The notes below the pieces were generated by a model. It saw only the letters and a list, made by a program, of their open reading frames with translations, had not been told where the DNA came from and ran no database searches. The position numbers and the translations under genes were made by a program. A stretch of 43,831 bases of DNA. Origin: a virus. The stretch lies in the IMG/VR virus record IMGVR_UViG_3300039106_001163, positions 1 through 43,831 of that record, one strand, 5' to 3'. The first letter of the stretch is position 1, and each line of letters begins with the position of its first letter. Of this stretch, positions 13,366 to 31,747 are shown one piece after another.

Positions 13366-16300
13366 ATGGCATTACCACAATGGATTACTCCAGCAGGACA
13401 ATTAGGAATAGTACCAGAACTTGAGTACTATGAATATGAGCTGGATGCATACGATGCATCCAATGGCACATTAGTTTATAGTCATATTTCAGGAAAATTG
13501 CCATTAGGGATACAGTTAATATCAACAGGTAAATTACAAGGAATTCCAGTAAGTGAATTAGGTGGAGACCAAAATGTTACTTATACATTTACTATCAGAG
13601 TAAAAAATGCTATTACTCACAGTGTAGCTGACCGAACATTTATTATTACGATATCAAACGTTGCACCACCTATTATTGTACCACGTGACGTCAATCTTGG
13701 TCAATATTTTGATGGTACAATAATTAACATACAATTAGAAGCAATCGAAGCAACTCCGGGCGCAACATTAATATGGCGCAAGAAGGATGGAGATCTTCCT
13801 AGTGGAGTAACTGTATCCCCGGCTGGATTAATTTATGGATACTTACCCACGATTGTCAATCCTGGACCGGGTAGTAGTCCAGGATGGGACGAAACCCCGT
13901 GGAACGAACTTGGATGGGATTTCCCAATACTTTCTACCAGTAAGATATTTAATTTTACTATAGAGGTCTTTGATGGCGTAAATTATGATGTGACTCCATA
14001 CAAGTTAACAGTTGTACCACAAAATGCACTCGCAGCAGATTCTACATTAGTTAGTGCCGATGCAACATTAAGTGGTGGCGAACCACTTACTATTGATATA
14101 GGTGCACGGCACGAACCAATTATAGTAACTACACAAGTTGAGCTCGAAACACAACGACAAGGTAGTTATTTTTCTTTTCAAATTACTGGATTAGATTTAA
14201 ATGGCGATGTATTACAATATACCCTTCCGTCGGCAGTAACAAGTTCATTCGACGAGCAAGTTATAATCGGCAATAGTAATCCATATATTGCATCAACATT
14301 AACAGGTGGTAATTTGTTTGTTGGAGTGAACTCGAGTTCCGATACCACTAGGGCAGCACTATTGCCAGGTGATGATATTAAAGTATTGAGTTTAACAAGC
14401 CCAGATGAATTAAATTGGTATGATGCCACTGTTAATAGTTATATCAATCTAAGAGTAACAGGCAATAAAATTATATCAGGCTCGCCGGGCAATTTTATTA
14501 CTCAGGGAATAAGTTCTGCTAATGCTACTATAGCTACTATAAGTAACACAACAGGTAGTATAGAAGTTTCGGGTAATATTGTTACCGGAAGTTTCACTGT
14601 ACATGGTAATACCAACATCGGCACATTAACCGTATCAAATCAAGCAATTACTGCTAATGTTGGTGATTTTATTACCCAGCTTGCAAGCACAGCTAATGCC
14701 ACTGTACGTGCTAATGTAGTGAATTCAATATCAGTGCCGATTCAAATAACCACTGGTGAATTTATTATTAGTGGTAGTAATGTAAAAATTAATGGTAGTT
14801 TCATTGATGCATATCCTACAGCTACCTTGTTTAATGATAAACTAATTACAGCCAATATTGGTGACCTTATTACACAACCGAGTACGGGCGCAACTGCAAC
14901 AATAACTGCAAATGTAGTTTCAGCAATTAATATACCAGTAAGATATACCGGTGGAACATTTACTATTGGTTACGGAAATCTTTCAATTAATGCTGTAACT
15001 ACCGATGTATACCCAACTGTATCTACCACAACAATAACTCCAGTGGCGATCACTGCAAATATTGGTGATATTATTACACAGTCAATTACAGGTGCTACTG
15101 CAACCATAACATCTAATATTGTAACTAATACTATTATTCCTGTTACATTTACCTCAGGCATATTTTCTACAACATCCGGTAATCTTACATTAGGCGCAAC
15201 TAGTATTGATGTGAAACCACTTAATGTTATTGCACATGCCGATATCGGAATGATGTATAATAATGCAAATACGTTTACATTTAATTCAGCAGCCGAATCT
15301 GCATTGGTACATATAGCAGATGGCCAGGCTTCTGATATTATAATAGTATTTGGCCATATTAATAGTGACGGGGGGACAATTACTGCACCTGCTGGGTATG
15401 CACTTGCTACTTCAAGAACTAACCATCAATCTGTAACATACTCAACTACAATGTCTGCATATAAAAACAGTAGTGTAGCAAATCCTGAGAATCCACCGGT
15501 ATTTATAGGCTCCGGTAGTACCCCAACTGATTGGAATGCATATTCAGTGAGAATTTCTCCAAGTGCATCTACAACTGGACTATATATCGGATCAACCGTT
15601 GATAATAATATTGATGGATTTGCTACTGGAAATAGTTTCACTATCTCTCTTCCTGCAGGGACACAACTTGGCGATTTAGCAATTATTGCTATAACTGCAA
15701 CTGCTAACCTTATTGGTGGTATGACCGCTACAGGTTGGACTCAAATAAGTGTTGATACCGGCATAATTAATAGCTGTTTACTTTATAAGATAATCACTAA
15801 TTTATCTGCCGTTACATTTACACACTCAGGTCTTATATCTGCTGCGGTAACTGCTACATTATCAGTATTCCGTGGGGCAACTTATAATTCGTATACATTT
15901 GCTAATAGTACAACTGGCTATCCTAATCCACCATCTATTGCAACTTCTGGAGTAATCGCAATTGATACAGTTACTAATGCAACTCCCACAACTGTAAATA
16001 GCGTTGGCGTAACACTTGGATTAATATCAACTGAAGGTACCATTGGATATAATGAATCTAAATTTGATCAAACTCCATTGTTTATATCTAATAATATAAC
16101 TATAGATATAAACTCGGGTTGGATGACAGGACGATTACCAAATCAAACAGTTAACGAAATTAACTATCCATTCGAAGTTATAGTTTATAAACGAGATTAT
16201 CCAGCATATTTAACAAGTGGATTATTTACATTAACAGTACTCGGTGATTTAAATAATAAAATTAATTGGGTAACACCAAGTGCATTAGGTACCATTGAAA

Positions 16301-18021
16301 ATGGACGTATAAGTGATCTATCTATTGTTGCTTTATCTACCAGAGATAAAGCTCTCTGGTATAAACTAACGCCAGGTTTGCTACAACATCTACCACAAGG
16401 GCTAATGCTTACGCCAAATGGGTTGCTATCTGGCAGAGTTAGTTTCGAATTGTTTAGTTTAGATCACAGAACTACATTTTTAGATGGCGATTTTTTTGGA
16501 AATGCAACTACTACATTTGATAATACATATACCTTTACAGTTACAGCAAGCGATTTTGCTCAAACTGTTGAATCTAGTCGTACTTTTACAATTCGCGTAC
16601 TTAATAGAAATATTACACCATACGAAGATTTGTATCTTAAAGCATTACCATCAAAAGAACAACGTGCGCAATTTTTATCAATCTTGCATAATACTTCAGT
16701 TTTTCCGCCAGCATTGATTTATCGCAATGAAGATCCATTTTTTGGTCTTGCCACTGATATTAAAACATTATTTTTACCAGGATTAAATCCTAGTCTATTA
16801 TCAGAATATGCTGCAGCAGTTGCAACTAATCATTATGAAAAAAGAATTACATTAGGCAATATAAAAACTGCGGTAGCACGTGATAGCAATTTTAATATTA
16901 AATACGAAGTTGTATACTTAGAAGTAACCGATGATAATACCAATGCATCAAGTGAAGGCCCGGCAAATATACAATATCCACATATTGCTACTCCTTATTA
17001 TGATGCCAATGGCAATAACTATACTATAGCATACCCTAATGCATTTAGTAATATGAAAGATGTTACTATTGCAGCTCTGGGTTATGCAAATAAAGGAGCC
17101 TTGCCAGATTGGATGACTAGTAGACAAGCAAATGGGTTCGTACTTGGATTTACTCGTGCCGTTGTGCTTGCATATACTATACCAGGTGCAAGTAGTTTAA
17201 TTGCTTATAGATACCAACAACAAAACTTTAACATGAATGATATTGATTTTACAGTCGATCGTTATCAACTTGATAATAATTATACTGCTAACTATGATAT
17301 TGCTGCTGGTGCATTTATTACTAGTAGAGAAACAACATTTGACCGTTACCCAGGTTTATCAAGTATTTTCACTTCATCTGGAACAGTTGACTATGCTGTA
17401 GTTATACCATTTGAAGATATTAATAATCGTTCAAAATCATTCCTAAATAATCTCGGCGGATTAGATGGTATAAAATATTTCAAAAACGGAGAAACATTAG
17501 TATTTGCTCAACAGGAATTTAATCAAGATCAAAATGATATCGGTGAATATAACCAAGGTTGGGGCAGAGTTGATACACTATGGGGTGGTGATTCTTGGGA
17601 TTATGACAATTCAACAGTCACAACCATAGATGATTTAGGTTGGGATTCTACAAATTTTGTTCCTGGATTTATTGAACATAACCTCAATCCACTTGTAGCA
17701 AATGAACGTATTGGTATCTGGCGTATTAATATCGATTCTGAGAATATAATTACATTGACCTATATACAAGAAATAACAATATATAATAAATTATATGTAA
17801 GAAATGGATATACTTATGGTGGTACTAATATCTATTTTGACCCAATAGTCAAACCTGGTAAATTAATACCAAATTATAGTATTATACCAGAAGAAATACA
17901 AATAATATCTACACAGTTTGATGGTAATGGTACACGATTCTATAATTATCGAGATAGTTATACACTACCCGAATCTGGAGATAAATACATTAAATTTGCT
18001 AAACTCGGAGTATTTAATTAA
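13366..18021 (+). CDS. Giant Ig-like/repeat virion protein, 1551 aa
   Basis: Opens with an Ig-like domain of the He_PIG type: GKLPLGIQLISTGKLQGIP (43-61), a second copy with DGDLPSGVTVSPAGLIYG (about 144-161), and another late in the protein (LPQGLMLTPNGLLSGRV). A tandem block of four roughly 60-68-residue repeats follows at about 367-621 (T-A-N-x-G-D-x-I-T-Q in each). The C-terminal third is Asn/Tyr/Asp-rich with no known domain. Size, repeats and position between two fibre-like genes point to a long tail fibre, adhesin or baseplate-associated protein, as in marine T4-like phages. No signal peptide. Confidence 0.75.
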   Translation: MALPQWITPAGQLGIVPELEYYEYELDAYDASNGTLVYSHISGKLPLGIQLISTGKLQGIPVSELGGDQNVTYTFTIRVKNAITHSVADRTFIITISNVAPPIIVPRDVNLGQYFDGTIINIQLEAIEATPGATLIWRKKDGDLPSGVTVSPAGLIYGYLPTIVNPGPGSSPGWDETPWNELGWDFPILSTSKIFNFTIEVFDGVNYDVTPYKLTVVPQNALAADSTLVSADATLSGGEPLTIDIGARHEPIIVTTQVELETQRQGSYFSFQITGLDLNGDVLQYTLPSAVTSSFDEQVIIGNSNPYIASTLTGGNLFVGVNSSSDTTRAALLPGDDIKVLSLTSPDELNWYDATVNSYINLRVTGNKIISGSPGNFITQGISSANATIATISNTTGSIEVSGNIVTGSFTVHGNTNIGTLTVSNQAITANVGDFITQLASTANATVRANVVNSISVPIQITTGEFIISGSNVKINGSFIDAYPTATLFNDKLITANIGDLITQPSTGATATITANVVSAINIPVRYTGGTFTIGYGNLSINAVTTDVYPTVSTTTITPVAITANIGDIITQSITGATATITSNIVTNTIIPVTFTSGIFSTTSGNLTLGATSIDVKPLNVIAHADIGMMYNNANTFTFNSAAESALVHIADGQASDIIIVFGHINSDGGTITAPAGYALATSRTNHQSVTYSTTMSAYKNSSVANPENPPVFIGSGSTPTDWNAYSVRISPSASTTGLYIGSTVDNNIDGFATGNSFTISLPAGTQLGDLAIIAITATANLIGGMTATGWTQISVDTGIINSCLLYKIITNLSAVTFTHSGLISAAVTATLSVFRGATYNSYTFANSTTGYPNPPSIATSGVIAIDTVTNATPTTVNSVGVTLGLISTEGTIGYNESKFDQTPLFISNNITIDINSGWMTGRLPNQTVNEINYPFEVIVYKRDYPAYLTSGLFTLTVLGDLNNKINWVTPSALGTIENGRISDLSIVALSTRDKALWYKLTPGLLQHLPQGLMLTPNGLLSGRVSFELFSLDHRTTFLDGDFFGNATTTFDNTYTFTVTASDFAQTVESSRTFTIRVLNRNITPYEDLYLKALPSKEQRAQFLSILHNTSVFPPALIYRNEDPFFGLATDIKTLFLPGLNPSLLSEYAAAVATNHYEKRITLGNIKTAVARDSNFNIKYEVVYLEVTDDNTNASSEGPANIQYPHIATPYYDANGNNYTIAYPNAFSNMKDVTIAALGYANKGALPDWMTSRQANGFVLGFTRAVVLAYTIPGASSLIAYRYQQQNFNMNDIDFTVDRYQLDNNYTANYDIAAGAFITSRETTFDRYPGLSSIFTSSGTVDYAVVIPFEDINNRSKSFLNNLGGLDGIKYFKNGETLVFAQQEFNQDQNDIGEYNQGWGRVDTLWGGDSWDYDNSTVTTIDDLGWDSTNFVPGFIEHNLNPLVANERIGIWRINIDSENIITLTYIQEITIYNKLYVRNGYTYGGTNIYFDPIVKPGKLIPNYSIIPEEIQIISTQFDGNGTRFYNYRDSYTLPESGDKYIKFAKLGVFN
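14464..15228 (+). repeat. Four tandem in-frame repeats (about 60-68 residues each)
   Basis: Copies begin near 14464, 14641, 14839 and 15041. Each encodes T-A-N-(V/I)-G-D-(F/L/I)-I-T-Q (first copy diverged: S-G-S-P-G-N-F-I-T-Q), then A-T-x-x-x-N-V, x-x-P-V-x-x-T-x-G-x-F and G-x-(L/V)-x-I-x-x-x-x-x-D. They suggest repeated beta-sandwich or beta-helix modules grown by duplication. Confidence 0.75.
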
Positions 18022-26123: not shown

Positions 26124-26639
26124 CTAAGTTGTCCACTCGGCATAAATTCGATTACCAGTATCCCACCGTACCTCGACTAATTTATATCCAAACTGATCAG
26201 CAAGCTCTACATGTTTTTCTATAGTCCACGGATAGAAGTTAATGTCTTTACATTGTTCATTATTGTGGTCGGCAATACCAGGATTACAGCGCCAATATAT
26301 TCTACTTTTAGGTTTAAGACAATTAACTACACATGTAATTTGATTTAATATAGTTTCTTCCGAGCCAAAGTTAATACTACCCAAGCAAAATGCTACATCA
26401 AATTTGATATCATTTCTAAAATGTTCTATCGATACTTTAAAATCTGCATTATCATTTGCTGGATCTATACCAACTAAAAACGGAATCCGTTGTTTAAATT
26501 CATTAAATCCACAACCTACATCTAATACTAATTCCTTATGGTTGACTTTATCTACTAATGCCCACCCCGAGTATTTGTATTGATTTATGTTGCTTTTCCA
26601 TACGGTACTAAAATAATTATTAAGTGCTGTTATATTCAT
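26124..26639 (-). CDS. Class I SAM-dependent methyltransferase, 171 aa
   Basis: Motif I V-L-D-V-G-C-G (38-44) and G-I-D-P (57-60) give the SAM site; F-D-V-A-F-C-L-G-S-I-N (about 80-90) is motif IV-like, followed by a helix and beta strands to the end. It is short for the fold with no extra domain, so the target (small molecule, sugar, protein or nucleic acid) cannot be told. It starts 12 bp from the divergent gene at 26652, so any promoters overlap the two gene starts. Confidence 0.75.
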   Translation of the reverse strand: MNITALNNYFSTVWKSNINQYKYSGWALVDKVNHKELVLDVGCGFNEFKQRIPFLVGIDPANDNADFKVSIEHFRNDIKFDVAFCLGSINFGSEETILNQITCVVNCLKPKSRIYWRCNPGIADHNNEQCKDINFYPWTIEKHVELADQFGYKLVEVRWDTGNRIYAEWTT

Positions 26640-26651
26640 ATAATTACTTAT

Positions 26652-27533
26652 ATGAAGAACATTTGTGTAATATATAATGGTGGAAATTATGGTACATTTA
26701 TTGAATGGTGTTTAAATTATTTCAGTGATTTAACATTTGATGAAACCTTGCCATTTACTTCTTCCGGTGATTCTCATAAATTTAAAGGAAATAATTTAGG
26801 CGATTTTGCTGGGTGTGTAAATTATATACAATCATCTAATAATTATTCATTTGTTAGGGTGCATCCAAAAACAAAAATAGATGAGGATATAATCCATAAT
26901 TTACAATATATTAATCGATGGTTTAATAAAATAATTTATATCAATCAGACCAGGAACGATATGGCCTGGAGCATCAATAATAAATTTGAAAAAATTTATC
27001 CCAACAGATGGCTTGCACACAATGAATTAACAATCTTATCCGATATACAGCGATGGAACGTAGATAGCTTAGATAAAATGACAATTTGGGAAAAACGTGA
27101 ATTTATGTCGTTAAATAGCTACCCGCAACATGTATCAGAATCTGAATTAGAAAAATCTCATCAGATTCGACTTGAATTTAACAATTTTCATTTCATTGAT
27201 TTGACAGCACTGCGAGATAATTTTAAAAATGAAATACTTTCATTATTAGAATATTGTCAACTTACTGCGGTACGTGTTGATAAAATGCAATATGTTTATG
27301 ATCATTGGATAAAATGTCAACATCATTGCAACAAAGATCAATTAATTAAAGTAATTGTTAATTCTATTTTAAATAATAATTATTACGATTGGTCAGCTTA
27401 TAATTTAACATTAGTCGATGAAGCCTTGATACAATATTATCTCAGAGAACAACATATAGAAATTAAATGTTATAATTTAAATATATTTCCAACAACTACA
27501 ACCAAATTAAAAGAATACTTATATAATGTCTAA
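26652..27533 (+). CDS. Phage protein, possibly sulfotransferase-related, 293 aa
   Basis: The start MKNICVIYNGGNYGTFIEWCLNYFS at 26652 is chosen because it opens with a beta strand and Gly-rich turn and clears the divergent methyltransferase. G-N-Y-G-T-F-I-E-W (11-19) occupies the place of a nucleotide loop, and S-H-K-F-K-G and R-V-H-P-K-T occur later. The middle (I-Y-I-N-Q-T-R-N) and W-E-K-R-E-F-M-S are helical. It has the plan of long uncharacterised phage proteins near sulfotransferase-like genes. No firm catalytic assignment. Confidence 0.6.
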   Translation: MKNICVIYNGGNYGTFIEWCLNYFSDLTFDETLPFTSSGDSHKFKGNNLGDFAGCVNYIQSSNNYSFVRVHPKTKIDEDIIHNLQYINRWFNKIIYINQTRNDMAWSINNKFEKIYPNRWLAHNELTILSDIQRWNVDSLDKMTIWEKREFMSLNSYPQHVSESELEKSHQIRLEFNNFHFIDLTALRDNFKNEILSLLEYCQLTAVRVDKMQYVYDHWIKCQHHCNKDQLIKVIVNSILNNNYYDWSAYNLTLVDEALIQYYLREQHIEIKCYNLNIFPTTTTKLKEYLYNV

Positions 27534-28110
27534 TTTACCTAATTACATATTCTTCACTGGTGTGCCCGGATCACGGTGGAGTGGTATTGCGCAAGTACTA
27601 GAGTCGATACCAGGCATGAATACAAGTGATCGCACACCAGCACGTACATACAGTCATCATAGTTACACAGGGCATGTCGGTGCATACTTTGGCCGCGACA
27701 TGGAGTTTGATACTATGTTAGATGCAGCGCACATAAACAGTGCATGGACTACAAAGGGTGGTACTAAGTTAGTTAAAAGTCATGATTGGGCATATAAGTT
27801 ACAAGAAATTAAAGATGCATTCCCTGATGCGTGGATTATGCTTGTCTATCGCCCAGATATGAGTAGTTATGCTTGGTGGCACGAAGCCGGAGGATTTCAA
27901 ATTAAGTATCCTTGCTATGATGCATACAAGAACAGCCCGACTATGCTCGGAGAAATAATAGCACAGAATTCTGCTATACTCGAGTTTGGTATGATAAATA
28001 ATTGTAAGTGGGAATACTTTACATCCGGGTGGATTAAAGAAAATTTCAATGCAGATATCAATGTAACTAACATCTGGCCAGATATATTAGTTACATTAAT
28101 TAAATTATAA
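27526..28110 (+). CDS. Sulfotransferase-like P-loop protein, 194 aa
   Basis: I-F-F-T-G-V-P-G-S-R-W-S (8-19) resembles the 5'-phosphosulfate loop of PAPS-dependent sulfotransferases, with K-L-V-K-S-H-D-W near 82-89 and W-I-M-L-V-Y-R-P-D-M-S-S (about 104-115) as the 3'-phosphate-binding strand, Arg and Ser. The family transfers sulfate from PAPS to sugars, small molecules or Tyr. At 194 residues it is short, so it may bind substrate without full activity. It overlaps the preceding gene by 8 bp. Confidence 0.65.
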   Translation: MSNLPNYIFFTGVPGSRWSGIAQVLESIPGMNTSDRTPARTYSHHSYTGHVGAYFGRDMEFDTMLDAAHINSAWTTKGGTKLVKSHDWAYKLQEIKDAFPDAWIMLVYRPDMSSYAWWHEAGGFQIKYPCYDAYKNSPTMLGEIIAQNSAILEFGMINNCKWEYFTSGWIKENFNADINVTNIWPDILVTLIKL

Positions 28111-28127
28111 CGTTATAGGAAAATAAA

Positions 28128-28823
28128 ATGAACTCAAAACAATTTGTTGCTAAAATGGCACAAGACAACGAAGCACTTTTCAAAGCAAGTGAAATGCAAG
28201 TTGAAGCATATTTCAATAGTAACCCGACACAAGAGCAATTAGTAACACACTTTGTTGGCCGTATGGTTAATGAAAGAATGAATATGGTAGAGATTTCTAC
28301 TAAAGTTGCTAATATGCCTGCAGATGCAACAGCAGAATATTGTGCTCTAATCAGTAAACAAGCATTAGATGAAGCTAACCATTTCCGTATGGTGCGTGAT
28401 GTTATCGAACACATGACAGGCGAAACATTAGATGTTGCGGCTGCTATTGCAGATGAAGAAGCAAATCCAACTGCTAAAGGTGCTGTACTTTTAGAAAAAT
28501 ACGAAGCACAAAACGATCCATTGGCTTTAGCTGCGTATCAGTTCATTGCTGAAGGCCGTGCTGAACGTGTTTGGAATAAAATGGCTGATTGTATTCAAGA
28601 CGAATTCATTGCAACAACATACGCTAAAATTGCTAAAGATGAAGGCTTCCACTCTCAGATTGGTGCACGTTCATTAGAACTATTGGCAACAGACGACGCT
28701 ACCCAAGCACGTGTTGAGCAAATTGCTCGTACAATGCGTGTGGATCTGTTTGCTGTATCATGTATGAACACAGTTGCATTACCAGAAGCTGCAAAATTAA
28801 TTGCCGATGCTTACAGCGCATAA
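28128..28823 (+). CDS. Ferritin-like di-iron protein, 231 aa
   Basis: A four-helix-bundle pattern with two E-x2-H pairs: D-E-A-N-H (E82, H85) and D-E-G-F-H (E172, H175), plus E49 or E55 and E142, giving the usual set of di-iron ligands. Relatives include MiaE-type, PaaA-type and other hydroxylase/oxidase di-iron proteins; storage ferritins differ. The oxidised substrate is unknown. It has its own ribosome-binding site (TAGGAAAA) and a strong terminator, so it reads like an independently controlled cargo gene. AT content is somewhat lower than in the neighbouring sulfotransferase-like genes. Confidence 0.75.
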   Translation: MNSKQFVAKMAQDNEALFKASEMQVEAYFNSNPTQEQLVTHFVGRMVNERMNMVEISTKVANMPADATAEYCALISKQALDEANHFRMVRDVIEHMTGETLDVAAAIADEEANPTAKGAVLLEKYEAQNDPLALAAYQFIAEGRAERVWNKMADCIQDEFIATTYAKIAKDEGFHSQIGARSLELLATDDATQARVEQIARTMRVDLFAVSCMNTVALPEAAKLIADAYSA

Positions 28824-28841
28824 TTAATAGTATAGTTTCGC

Positions 28842-28866
28842 AAAAGGGACTTAGGTCCCTTTTTTT
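28842..28866 (+). terminator. Rho-independent terminator after the ferritin-like gene
   Basis: AAAAGGGAC (28842-28850) pairs with GTCCCTTTT (28855-28863) around the loop TTAG, followed by more T. It ends 40 bp after the di-iron gene's stop and just before the next operon. Confidence 0.9.
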
Positions 28867-28881
28867 ATCTCTAGGATTTCG

Positions 28882-29112
28882 ATGAAAGATTATACAGTTA
28901 TAATCAAATGGTTCTCGGCAACAATGATTTTATGTGCTATGCCTTTACATATTTTAGGTATCACACCCTGGAATAGCATATTACAAATTATAGGTGCATG
29001 TGGGTGGGTTTATGTAGGTTTCAAATGGAAAGAAAAATCTCTTATTACTAACTTCTTACCACAGATTTTTATGATTATTGCTGGATTAATTTACTTTGCG
29101 TACTTCAAATGA
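28882..29112 (+). CDS. Small membrane protein (DUF6552-like), 76 aa
   Basis: Two or three hydrophobic segments (about 7-27, 32-47 and 57-74), with the conserved-looking G-I-T-P-W-N at 26-31 and V-G-F-K-W-K-E-K at 45-52. This resembles the small phage inner-membrane family DUF6552. The topology suggests both ends near the membrane faces. It is coupled to the amidotransferase gene by a 4-bp overlap. Function unknown. Confidence 0.6.
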   Translation: MKDYTVIIKWFSATMILCAMPLHILGITPWNSILQIIGACGWVYVGFKWKEKSLITNFLPQIFMIIAGLIYFAYFK

Positions 29113-29645
29113 AAATAGCTATTTCTCAAACACAAACTAGTATCAATGGTATCATTTATGATTGTTTAGATCCACAGTGGTATACTTTCTTATATGATCA
29201 TGATTTAATTCCTATTCCTAATATTATAGATGTAAATTTTAATGCAGACATGTTAATATTAACCGGAGGCAAAGATACCCCAGCTAGGTTAGCAACAGAA
29301 ACAACTCTCTTTAATATAGCATTGGCAAAAAATATACCTATACTTGGTATATGTAGGGGTGCATTTATTTTAAATGGTTATTATAATGGTATGAATAGAG
29401 TAATCGACGGGCATAGTAAAACAGAACATGCCATAGAAATGGAAGAACAGACATTTATCGTCAATAGTTTTCATAATTCTGGCATTTATCTTATTGGCGA
29501 TGATATTGAAATTATTGCTACCGCCGATGATTGTATTGAGGCATATAAACATAGATATTTGCCAATTTGGGGTCTTTCGTGGCACCCGGAACGTATGGAA
29601 GAACCTGTGTTACCAAAGGAGTTAGAGGAGTTATTGTTTGGCTAA
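29109..29645 (+). CDS. Class I glutamine amidotransferase-like (C26) protein, 178 aa
   Basis: L-G-I-C-R-G-A-F (79-86) has the nucleophile C82, and L-S-W-H-P-E-R-M (156-163) has H159 and E161, a complete catalytic triad. L-T-G-G-K-D-T-P (51-58) is the oxyanion-side motif of PuuD-type gamma-glutamyl hydrolases. It would release ammonia from glutamine for a partner enzyme or hydrolyse a gamma-glutamyl amide. No synthetase partner is apparent beside it. It is coupled upstream (4 bp) and downstream (8 bp). Confidence 0.8.
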   Translation: MKIAISQTQTSINGIIYDCLDPQWYTFLYDHDLIPIPNIIDVNFNADMLILTGGKDTPARLATETTLFNIALAKNIPILGICRGAFILNGYYNGMNRVIDGHSKTEHAIEMEEQTFIVNSFHNSGIYLIGDDIEIIATADDCIEAYKHRYLPIWGLSWHPERMEEPVLPKELEELLFG

Positions 29646-30273
29646 AATGTTGATTTTAACTGGTCCGCAAGGCGCAGGTAATCATCTATGGAGTAAAATA
29701 TTCAGTTTACATCCTGAGGTATATGGATGGAAAAGTCTATTAGACAATTATTGGGAAGCACATAGATTTGCAGAACCTTTTTGTGAACACTGGCGTGACC
29801 ACAAACGATTAGAATCATTTAACTGGAATCAAAACGAATATTTCTTTACCAGTATTAGTTTACCGTTGGGTATTATAGGCAGTGATATAAATCCTGTATG
29901 GCTACCCGATGTAAGTGGATTTGCTGCTACTGTGCTAGGTCAAGGGGTAGAAGTACAAATTGTTGTCTGTGGGCGTGACCAAACTATATTATCTAATCAG
30001 CAAACAAGAATCAGAACACAAAGTACATTGCCTATGTTTATGGAACAATTACCTAAACTATGGAATCCTACGTTTTTAAGTTATGAATTATTGTATCTAT
30101 ATAAACAAGATTACTTAAAAAGTTTAAATCTCAATATACCAATAGCGTGGGATAATCCTACAATTAACCAAATACTAGATGATGATGCTAATGTCAAATA
30201 TATACACGATATTAATTATAATGAATTAGACAATGGCAATAAATTTGGCAAAACATTTAAAACAAAACCATGA
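29638..30273 (+). CDS. Sulfotransferase-like P-loop protein, 211 aa (paralogue A)
   Basis: L-I-L-T-G-P-Q-G-A-G-N-H-L-W-S-K (5-20) is a P-loop in which the usual Lys-Ser is replaced by N-H, as in sulfotransferase-like rather than kinase loops. It shares this loop, the H-P-x-V-x-G-W-K-x-L-L-x-x-Y-W segment and E-P-F with the gene at 31097. TTG at 29638 has GAGGAG seven bases upstream and is preferred to the ATG at 29647. PAPS use is not proven. Confidence 0.65.
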   Translation: MAKMLILTGPQGAGNHLWSKIFSLHPEVYGWKSLLDNYWEAHRFAEPFCEHWRDHKRLESFNWNQNEYFFTSISLPLGIIGSDINPVWLPDVSGFAATVLGQGVEVQIVVCGRDQTILSNQQTRIRTQSTLPMFMEQLPKLWNPTFLSYELLYLYKQDYLKSLNLNIPIAWDNPTINQILDDDANVKYIHDINYNELDNGNKFGKTFKTKP

Positions 30274-31100
30274 ATAATTCTATAAATTTCAATACAGCTA
30301 ATTTAATTATTGTTTGCTATCCAGATGATGCCGGCGGCAAATTTTTAATAAATTGCTTAGGACTAAGCGACGATGCTGTATTTTTATCAAATACCATGGC
30401 TGCTAAACAACTTAATCTAACTTTTTCTCAATCCGACAAGATAGGATATTTAAATACTGCGATAGGAAAAATAACTAATACATGGAATGATTTAGGATTA
30501 GGCGAAAAGGAATTCTTTGGTGTAGGTAATACTGAATATTATCTACGGCCTCAATTAGTAAAACAAGCACCATTTGATCCTGTTATATCTAAGTTATCAC
30601 ATAGTGATAAGAAGTTTTTTACCGTTGCGCACGGCGAATGGGAATTAGGGCCGATATTAAATGTTTGGCCAAATGCCAAGGTTATAATATTTAAAAATTG
30701 TAAACAATTTATGAACTATAGAACAAAAAGTAACCTTCAACGATTATGGGACGCACTTAAAGGTGCCGATTGGCCAGATGTTGCTCCGCTTAGTGCATCT
30801 GAATTTGCTACGCTTCCACAATTCATTAAATCTGAATTAGCGTTAGCCGGCGATATAGGTACTATTATACACAAAATGGCATATGATGAATTGGTATTAA
30901 ATGATTATTACAATGCTATGGAGAAATACGTAGATCACGCGATATATTGGGATACTAATCATTATTTCTCAGAAGATGAAACAATAGGTGAAATAAAAAA
31001 ATTATATGAGCTATATAATTTAAATAATTTTAATGTTGAATTAATAAAACAATATTATCGTTTGTGGATTAGTAAATTAGTTGAGCTTACACAAAAATGA
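30270..31100 (+). CDS. Phage protein with G-G-K-F loop, 276 aa
   Basis: I-I-V-C-Y-P-D-D-A-G-G-K-F-L-I-N-C-L (13-30) looks like a nucleotide-binding or sulfotransferase-like loop after a first beta strand. The later parts are helical (W-P-N-A-K-V-I-I-F, residues about 131-139, may be the second strand). It has the same coupled place in the chain as its neighbours, with 4-bp overlaps on both sides, and shares no close identity with the paralogues A and B. Family not certain; I treat it as sulfotransferase-related by context. Confidence 0.6.
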   Translation: MNNSINFNTANLIIVCYPDDAGGKFLINCLGLSDDAVFLSNTMAAKQLNLTFSQSDKIGYLNTAIGKITNTWNDLGLGEKEFFGVGNTEYYLRPQLVKQAPFDPVISKLSHSDKKFFTVAHGEWELGPILNVWPNAKVIIFKNCKQFMNYRTKSNLQRLWDALKGADWPDVAPLSASEFATLPQFIKSELALAGDIGTIIHKMAYDELVLNDYYNAMEKYVDHAIYWDTNHYFSEDETIGEIKKLYELYNLNNFNVELIKQYYRLWISKLVELTQK

Positions 31101-31747
31101 AAAAACTATTAATTATTACAGGGCCGCAAGGTTCGGGCAATCATTTATTCAGTAGGGTGTTAAGCACACATCCACACGTAGGTGGATGGAAAGACCTATT
31201 AAAACAATATTGGATACCTAGCGACGAAGAACCTTTTGCTAAGTTTTGGATTAAGCCCGACGAACTAACATCGGCGCAGTTCGAAGGATACGATTATTGG
31301 CTTGCTAATGTAAGCTGTCCATTCTTTTATGATGGAGTCCGACATGTACCTAAAATACTCGAAGTAGCTAAACAAGCACGTGGACTTGGGATAGATGTTA
31401 AGATTGCCATAATCACTCGTGACAAAAATATTAATGCAGAACAACAATTACGAGTACGAAAAGAAATTACCACTCCGATTGCGCAGGATTATTACTATAA
31501 TCATCTCTTATCCAGTGATTTTCCTGTACATTTTCTATCAAATGAGGCCTTATTTTTATATCACGAGCAATACCTTAAATGGATTAGCAAACTCTTAAGT
31601 TTTCCAGTGGATTACACCAATCCTGAGATATTTAAATTCTTAACAGAAGATCCAAATGCAAAATATGTTAAATATGTTGACAAATACTGGTTAGATGAAC
31701 AGGTATGGCATGGTGTACAATCGAAGCAAGCTCGCGGAATTGAATAA
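31097..31747 (+). CDS. Sulfotransferase-like P-loop protein, 216 aa (paralogue B)
   Basis: L-I-I-T-G-P-Q-G-S-G-N-H-L-F-S-R (5-20) lines up exactly with paralogue A at 29638, followed by H-P-H-V-G-G-W-K-D-L-L-K-Q-Y-W and E-E-P-F-A-K-F-W. Later segments (Y-Y-Y-N-H-L-L, L-F-L-Y-H-E-Q-Y-L-K) also match A in order, so the two arose by duplication and were separated by the gene at 30270. It ends the coupled chain. Substrate unknown. Confidence 0.65.
   Translation: MKKLLIITGPQGSGNHLFSRVLSTHPHVGGWKDLLKQYWIPSDEEPFAKFWIKPDELTSAQFEGYDYWLANVSCPFFYDGVRHVPKILEVAKQARGLGIDVKIAIITRDKNINAEQQLRVRKEITTPIAQDYYYNHLLSSDFPVHFLSNEALFLYHEQYLKWISKLLSFPVDYTNPEIFKFLTEDPNAKYVKYVDKYWLDEQVWHGVQSKQARGIE

Follow-up and report, generated by a model that had tools for sequence, protein, structure and literature searches.

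A conserved phage gene cluster with sulfotransferase-fold, di-iron oxidase and amidotransferase genes that may encode a sulfation-centred tailoring pathway

The window analysed here is the full-length virus record IMG/VR IMGVR_UViG_3300039106_001163 (43.8 kb; 43,831 nt), in which T4-like genes (clamp loader, PhoH, virion proteins and endolysin) flank a compact cluster of nine genes (Table 1). The original prediction, made from the sequence alone, described a methyltransferase diverging at the left edge from a chain of sulfotransferase-like, ferritin-like and amidotransferase genes, and all nine reading frames (MT, S1, S2, Fer, DUF6552, GAT, SA, S3 and SB) are open where it placed them; S1 has an alternative start at 26580 instead of 26652. 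In the left part of the chain, S1 and S2 overlap by 8 bp, and gaps of 17 bp and 58 bp separate S2 from Fer and Fer from DUF6552. The genes from 28882 to 31747 are joined by overlaps of 4, 8, 4 and 4 bp, as had been noticed. The predicted gene set stood; the gene at 28882, which had been left unnamed, matches DUF6552 in Pfam (E 8e-11) and encodes a membrane protein. A hairpin in the Fer/DUF6552 gap divides S1-S2-Fer from DUF6552-GAT-SA-S3-SB; its role as a terminator between the two groups is only suggestive, because six such sites were found versus 3.5 expected in shuffles.

Table 1 Genes and features of the cluster in the window
Feature	Position	Strand	Description
MT	26124..26639	-	Small predicted class I S-adenosylmethionine (SAM) methyltransferase, diverging from the plus-strand chain; LDVGCG-type SAM loop
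S1	26652..27533	+	Possible divergent sulfotransferase-like protein, weakly backed; profile P 0.0092 at C-terminal motif
S2	27526..28110	+	Sulfotransferase-like; PGSRWS loop, VYRPD strand; profile match P 1.8e-6
Fer	28128..28823	+	Predicted helical-bundle di-iron oxidase; the cluster's anchor gene
Terminator-like hairpin	28842..28863	+	9-pair stem, 4 nt loop, then T-rich tail
DUF6552	28882..29112	+	Small membrane protein; PF20189 E 7.7e-11
GAT	29109..29645	+	Class I glutamine-amidotransferase-fold gamma-glutamyl hydrolase; PF07722 E 9e-16
SA	29638..30273	+	Sulfotransferase-fold (predicted); SB paralogue, same motifs
S3	30270..31100	+	Fast-evolving, GGKFL loop; possibly divergent sulfotransferase
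SB	31097..31747	+	Sulfotransferase-fold (predicted); GPQGSGNH 5'-phosphosulfate-type loop

The cluster recurs in viral relatives, and its carriers are large, mostly uncultured phages. A search with Fer brought up 373 viral relatives, and 80 of these were retrieved; a search with SB returned 28 viral loci. The recurring order is a divergent MT followed by S2, Fer, DUF6552, GAT, SA and SB, with S1 and S3 genes inserted. Among 31 loci that were non-redundant at 90% Fer identity and had at least 6 kb on each side, MT was present in 29, GAT in 28, S2 in 26, SA/SB in 23, an Asp-hydroxylase-like gene in 16, DUF6552 in 11 and a TctC-like gene in 10. We also examined 24 large contigs (110-354 kb, 4.56 Mb in total), where all 27 SA/SB matches and all 23 GAT matches lay within 5 kb of Fer, compared with about 3 expected within 10 kb; because these contigs were picked for carrying Fer, the comparison speaks to distance and not to presence. 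A conserved neighbourhood in related phages, on which the original prediction had staked the cluster, was strongly evident both in the 31 loci and in the large contigs.

When the genes were compared with those of relatives, the ratio of nonsynonymous to synonymous substitution rates (dN/dS) almost always lay in the range 0.02-0.37, reaching 0.52 for S1 against one distant relative; dS was saturated in some of the comparisons. These low ratios indicate that all cluster genes are under purifying selection, which is strongest on DUF6552 (about 0.02 versus most relatives) and weakest on S1 and S3; the S3 family occurs in relatives in arrays of 0-5 tandem copies. Neither a near-identity search of annotated phages nor a tblastn search of cultured phages with SB and Fer gave a match, and a single-cell marine virus carried relatives of S2, MT and DUF6552 only. 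In Pelagibacter phage Mosig (L032:6908-8749), a weak match to DUF6552 (35%, E 2e-3) lies two genes away from a gene annotated as rubrerythrin.

SA and SB had been proposed as paralogues with a common GPQGxGNH loop, and their alignment spans 199 aa at 38% identity (E 2.5e-35). The loop is invariant in all 103 unique SA/SB family members, as are R108, Q116, R119, N187 and K189. Searches by sequence gave no Pfam match for SA/SB, and their profile found no usable match in the PDB. Structure prediction and Foldseek, which had been suggested as a check and were run on SB, revealed the fold of sulfotransferases dependent on 3'-phosphoadenosine 5'-phosphosulfate (PAPS). The AlphaFold model of SB (predicted local distance difference test, pLDDT, 94.8) matched tyrosylprotein sulfotransferases (TPSTs) first in the PDB. 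With VIA-align, it superposed on TPST1 at Z 12.4 (root-mean-square deviation 3.2 Å over 168 residues) and on TPST2 and the sulfotransferase domains of olefin synthase and curacin at Z 12.0-12.4, with 12.2 for TPST2, 12.3 for olefin synthase and 12.2 for curacin; non-sulfotransferase P-loop proteins, including kinases, scored below 10. SB also matched a home-built profile of 21 bacterial Sulfotransfer_3 proteins at the 5' loop (P 2.9e-6). SB resembles PAPS-dependent sulfotransferases (Pfam Sulfotransfer_1/3; TPST1/2) in fold, in loop-strand layout and possibly in an RD...Q/S motif of 3'-phosphate type; R108-D109...Q116 is invariant or nearly so in SA/SB, at the place expected for the 3'-phosphate Arg. 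However, it differs from them in having no Pfam match and 13-18% identity, it is shorter than the solved sulfotransferases that it matched, and the 5'-phosphosulfate loop, though present, has no basic Lys/Arg residue in any of the 103 sequences. The model supports a sulfotransferase fold for SA/SB.

Five sulfotransferase-like proteins had been proposed at this locus, which agrees well with our results for SA, SB and S2 and weakly for S1 (P 0.009) and S3. The family profiles were compared with the same Sulfotransfer_3 profile: the S2 match extends over 111 columns and covers both PAPS motifs, the S1 match is in register with the C-terminal motif, and S3 matches weakly at the loop (P 0.066). In approximate column-shuffle counts, none of 100 shuffles reached the real score for S1, S2, S3 or SB, whereas 33, 19 and 5 of 100 did for the controls MT, GAT and Fer, which had no match to the profile. 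Three of the 15 S2 family members match PF13469 (best E 0.0024), S1 and S3 have no Pfam match, and a PDB sequence search with the S2 profile gave no usable match. The profile match supports the sulfotransferase-like assignment of S2, and for S1 and S3 that assignment is only suggestive. Profile-profile comparisons among SA/SB, S2, S3 and S1 yielded only short local matches, so common descent of all five is not established by sequence. A kinase assignment for S3, based on a profile match to 8t8v (E 3e-5), a giant-virus inositol phosphate kinase according to its paper, was rejected since the match depends on a short segment within the C-terminal half.

The ferritin-like, oxygenase-type protein of the original prediction was recovered in the Fer model (pLDDT 94), which matches the di-iron helical bundles of CADD, PqqC, MiaE, HrmI and aldehyde-deformylating oxygenase (ADO) at Z 14-16.6; for helical bundles, Z is telling only above about 13. 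The six di-iron ligands E49, E82, H85, E142, E172 and H175 are kept in all 75 unique Fer homologues. By its model, Fer is a di-iron helical-bundle oxidase, which shares the bundle and the E/ExxH/E/ExxH ligands with ferritin-like and heme-oxygenase-like di-iron oxidases (MiaE, CADD, PqqC, HrmI, ADO and PaaA) but has no sequence-family match above cutoff. Its profile found no usable match in a PDB sequence search, and Fer forms a family of its own that is mostly viral. GAT likewise proved to be the class I amidotransferase expected, with PF07722 above cutoff and an intact Cys-His-Glu triad in all 58 homologues. Its nearest NCBIfam family is the gamma-glutamyl-CDP-amidate hydrolase NF045546 (Cj1417; E 1.7e-25, below cutoff), and this was the nearest family for all four GAT members tested, at 45-90 bits against a cutoff of 250 bits. 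The MT of the window has no Pfam match itself, its Massilia homologue matches Methyltransf_11 above cutoff (PF08241, E 6.7e-6), and we classify MT by these features as a class I SAM methyltransferase.

Fer is rare in bacteria: it turned up at nine loci in 84,980 species genomes, in 2 of the 294 genomes from the family to which Janthinobacterium sp. UMAB-56 belongs, and in 2 of the 141 from the order Bdellovibrionales. In one Bdellovibrionales metagenome-assembled genome (MAG), Fer diverges from CysD (PF01507, 6e-43) and CysN-CysC (PF01583, 3e-64) and is followed by two Sulfotransfer_3 proteins (PF13469) and an arginine-deiminase-like protein; a second MAG has the same CysD/CysN-type neighbours. 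In Tahibacter, Fer is followed by a Sulfotransfer_3 protein (PF13469, 2e-35), a sulfatase-like gene, S2, MT and a MatE transporter. In Massilia and Janthinobacterium, Fer-cupin-SB comes after MT, S2, a sulfatase-like gene and a 2H phosphoesterase; the contigs are hundreds of kb long, and the neighbouring genes read as ordinary bacterial genes. Without recourse to the SB fold, these contexts connect Fer, S2, MT and SB with sulfate chemistry. In addition, a Nitrosopumilaceae MAG contig (L115:98-5466) opens with the genes cupin-SA-Fer-GAT-S1, which share as much as about 90% identity with phage genes; archaeal-looking genes follow, and either integration or chimeric assembly would account for this arrangement.

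Further genes join the cluster in other phages. The Asp/Asn-hydroxylase-like protein (family c0) has no Pfam match and is read as a 2-oxoglutarate (2OG) enzyme from its HxD...H...R pattern, found in 40 of 41 members. It lies directly after S2 in 35 cases, an adjacency that would fit hydroxylation followed by sulfation. In L053:14153-20596, several c0 and S2 genes alternate in a row, as if the pair had been amplified. A cupin (c18), TctC (c16, E 1e-22) and TctA (c48, E 2.6e-84) also occur, and a signal-peptide protein adjoining TctA (c47) is taken as TctC-like from its position only. In the phage cluster at L053:11246-14129, two further genes come after a TctA homologue, whose Pfam match comes from another family member. 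One encodes a protein with a signal peptide and the other a small membrane protein; neither has a Pfam match, and they are possibly TctC and TctB. An adenosine 5'-phosphosulfate (APS)-kinase-like gene (c24, E 9e-6), in some cases next to or fused with an HxGH nucleotidyltransferase and DUF2061, occurs in 16 of the 24 large contigs; in 8 of those 16 it lies no more than about 5.5 kb from Fer. Two loci (L124:337-1746 and L126:673-1746) carry a second, small cassette of APS-kinase-like protein, DUF2061-like membrane protein and HxGH nucleotidyltransferase, tens of kb from Fer.

From the conserved and linked gene set, the invariant catalytic residues, the SB and Fer folds and the link of bacterial Fer to PAPS synthesis and sulfotransferases, we consider it somewhat probable that phages carry this cluster as a tailoring pathway with sulfation at its centre. 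Fer would oxidise the substrate, with 2OG hydroxylases and the cupin as partners in many relatives; S2, SA and SB, perhaps with S1 and S3, would add sulfuryl groups as PAPS-type sulfotransferases; and MT would methylate the same substrate. GAT may cleave a gamma-glutamyl amide and so unmask an amine or deliver ammonia, and the host would supply the activated sulfate, with a partial contribution from the phage APS-kinase-like protein in some relatives. The earlier proposal that the genes sulfate, methylate and oxidise one shared molecule fits all of the context, including the PAPS-synthesis genes beside Fer in Bdellovibrionales, and either of its two options, small molecule or surface glycan, may hold: the product may be a soluble metabolite, as the transporters and bacterial clusters suggest, or a surface group. 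Several observations weigh against a sulfation pathway. The main doubt about ordinary sulfotransfer is that the SA/SB loop has no basic residue, so that either the activity or the donor could be different. In the 24 large contigs, no CysD/CysH-type gene was found, the bacterial CysD/CysNC link was observed only in Bdellovibrionales, and profile support for S1 and S3 is weak.

The modified molecule could instead be a polymer that is hydroxylated and then sulfated: a host surface glycan or lipopolysaccharide, in which case the purpose would be superinfection exclusion, or a protein or glycan of the virion. The virion structural genes vsp1 and vsp2 often adjoin the cluster, the best structural match of SB is a tyrosylprotein sulfotransferase with heparan sulfotransferases just below, and S1 and S3 evolve fastest, as surface-targeting genes might. 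However, a glycosyltransferase is not a regular member, and TctA/TctC and the bacterial MatE neighbour better suit a soluble small molecule, which leaves a polymer target rather unlikely. That the genes are a mixed island of unrelated auxiliary functions with no common pathway would explain why membership varies, with S1, S3, TctC and the cupin coming and going; the strict linkage of Fer, GAT and SA/SB and the reappearance of the same sets in three genera of bacteria render this quite improbable.

Because the best family of GAT is Cj1417-like, we also weighed transfer of a phosphoramidate-type group, as in the O-methyl phosphoramidate (MeOPN) of Campylobacter, in which GAT would free CDP-amidate, the APS-kinase-like protein phosphorylate it, the sulfotransferase-fold proteins transfer it and MT methylate it. 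GAT resembles Cj1417 in its intact triad, and APS-kinase-like and nucleotidyltransferase genes lie nearby, but all GAT scores are far below the family cutoff. A glutamine kinase of the Cj1418 type should carry a PPDK_N domain, and no PPDK_N protein (PF01326) was found in the 24 large contigs, which may be incomplete. This absence and the PAPS-synthesis genes beside bacterial Fer reduce an MeOPN-type pathway to a minor and very unlikely rival. A phage DNA hypermodification pathway, for which reported sulfotransferase-based nucleotide modification systems (cited in PMC10829341) offer a phage precedent, is hardly to be expected given the homologous MT, S2, Fer and SB clusters on ordinary-looking bacterial contigs of Massilia and Janthinobacterium.

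In our literature search, single phage sulfotransferases and tctA were found, and no description of such a cluster. Phage auxiliary metabolic genes, among which tctA has been reported (PMC6359870), are likewise host-type metabolic genes, whereas the set described here is a recurrent multi-enzyme tailoring set and not a single gene. Parts of the bacterial Fer loci resemble the ascamycin acm sulfamate nucleoside cluster, which also brings together a sulfotransferase, an APS kinase, a sulfatase and an amidino- or deiminase-type enzyme, but the acm genes treated in the available part of PMC9113183 include no di-iron oxidase, cupin or GAT; this likeness, by gene type alone, is a lead only. As a long shot, the sulfotransferases and GAT might join sulfate and glutamine-derived nitrogen into a sulfamate or N-sulfo compound, in a phage-spread natural-product-like pathway that would serve as a weapon against rival microbes or superinfecting phages, or as a means of rewiring the host. 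If the sulfation pathway is real, hundreds of viral contigs would carry a phage-encoded multi-enzyme sulfation pathway, with a compact sulfotransferase family that sequence libraries miss. The rare homologues in Massilia, Janthinobacterium and Tahibacter make the phage sulfation target testable without the uncultured phage. Elsewhere in the window, an open reading frame of 1551 aa without a PHROG match (13366-18021) adjoins a tail-fibre-like gene.

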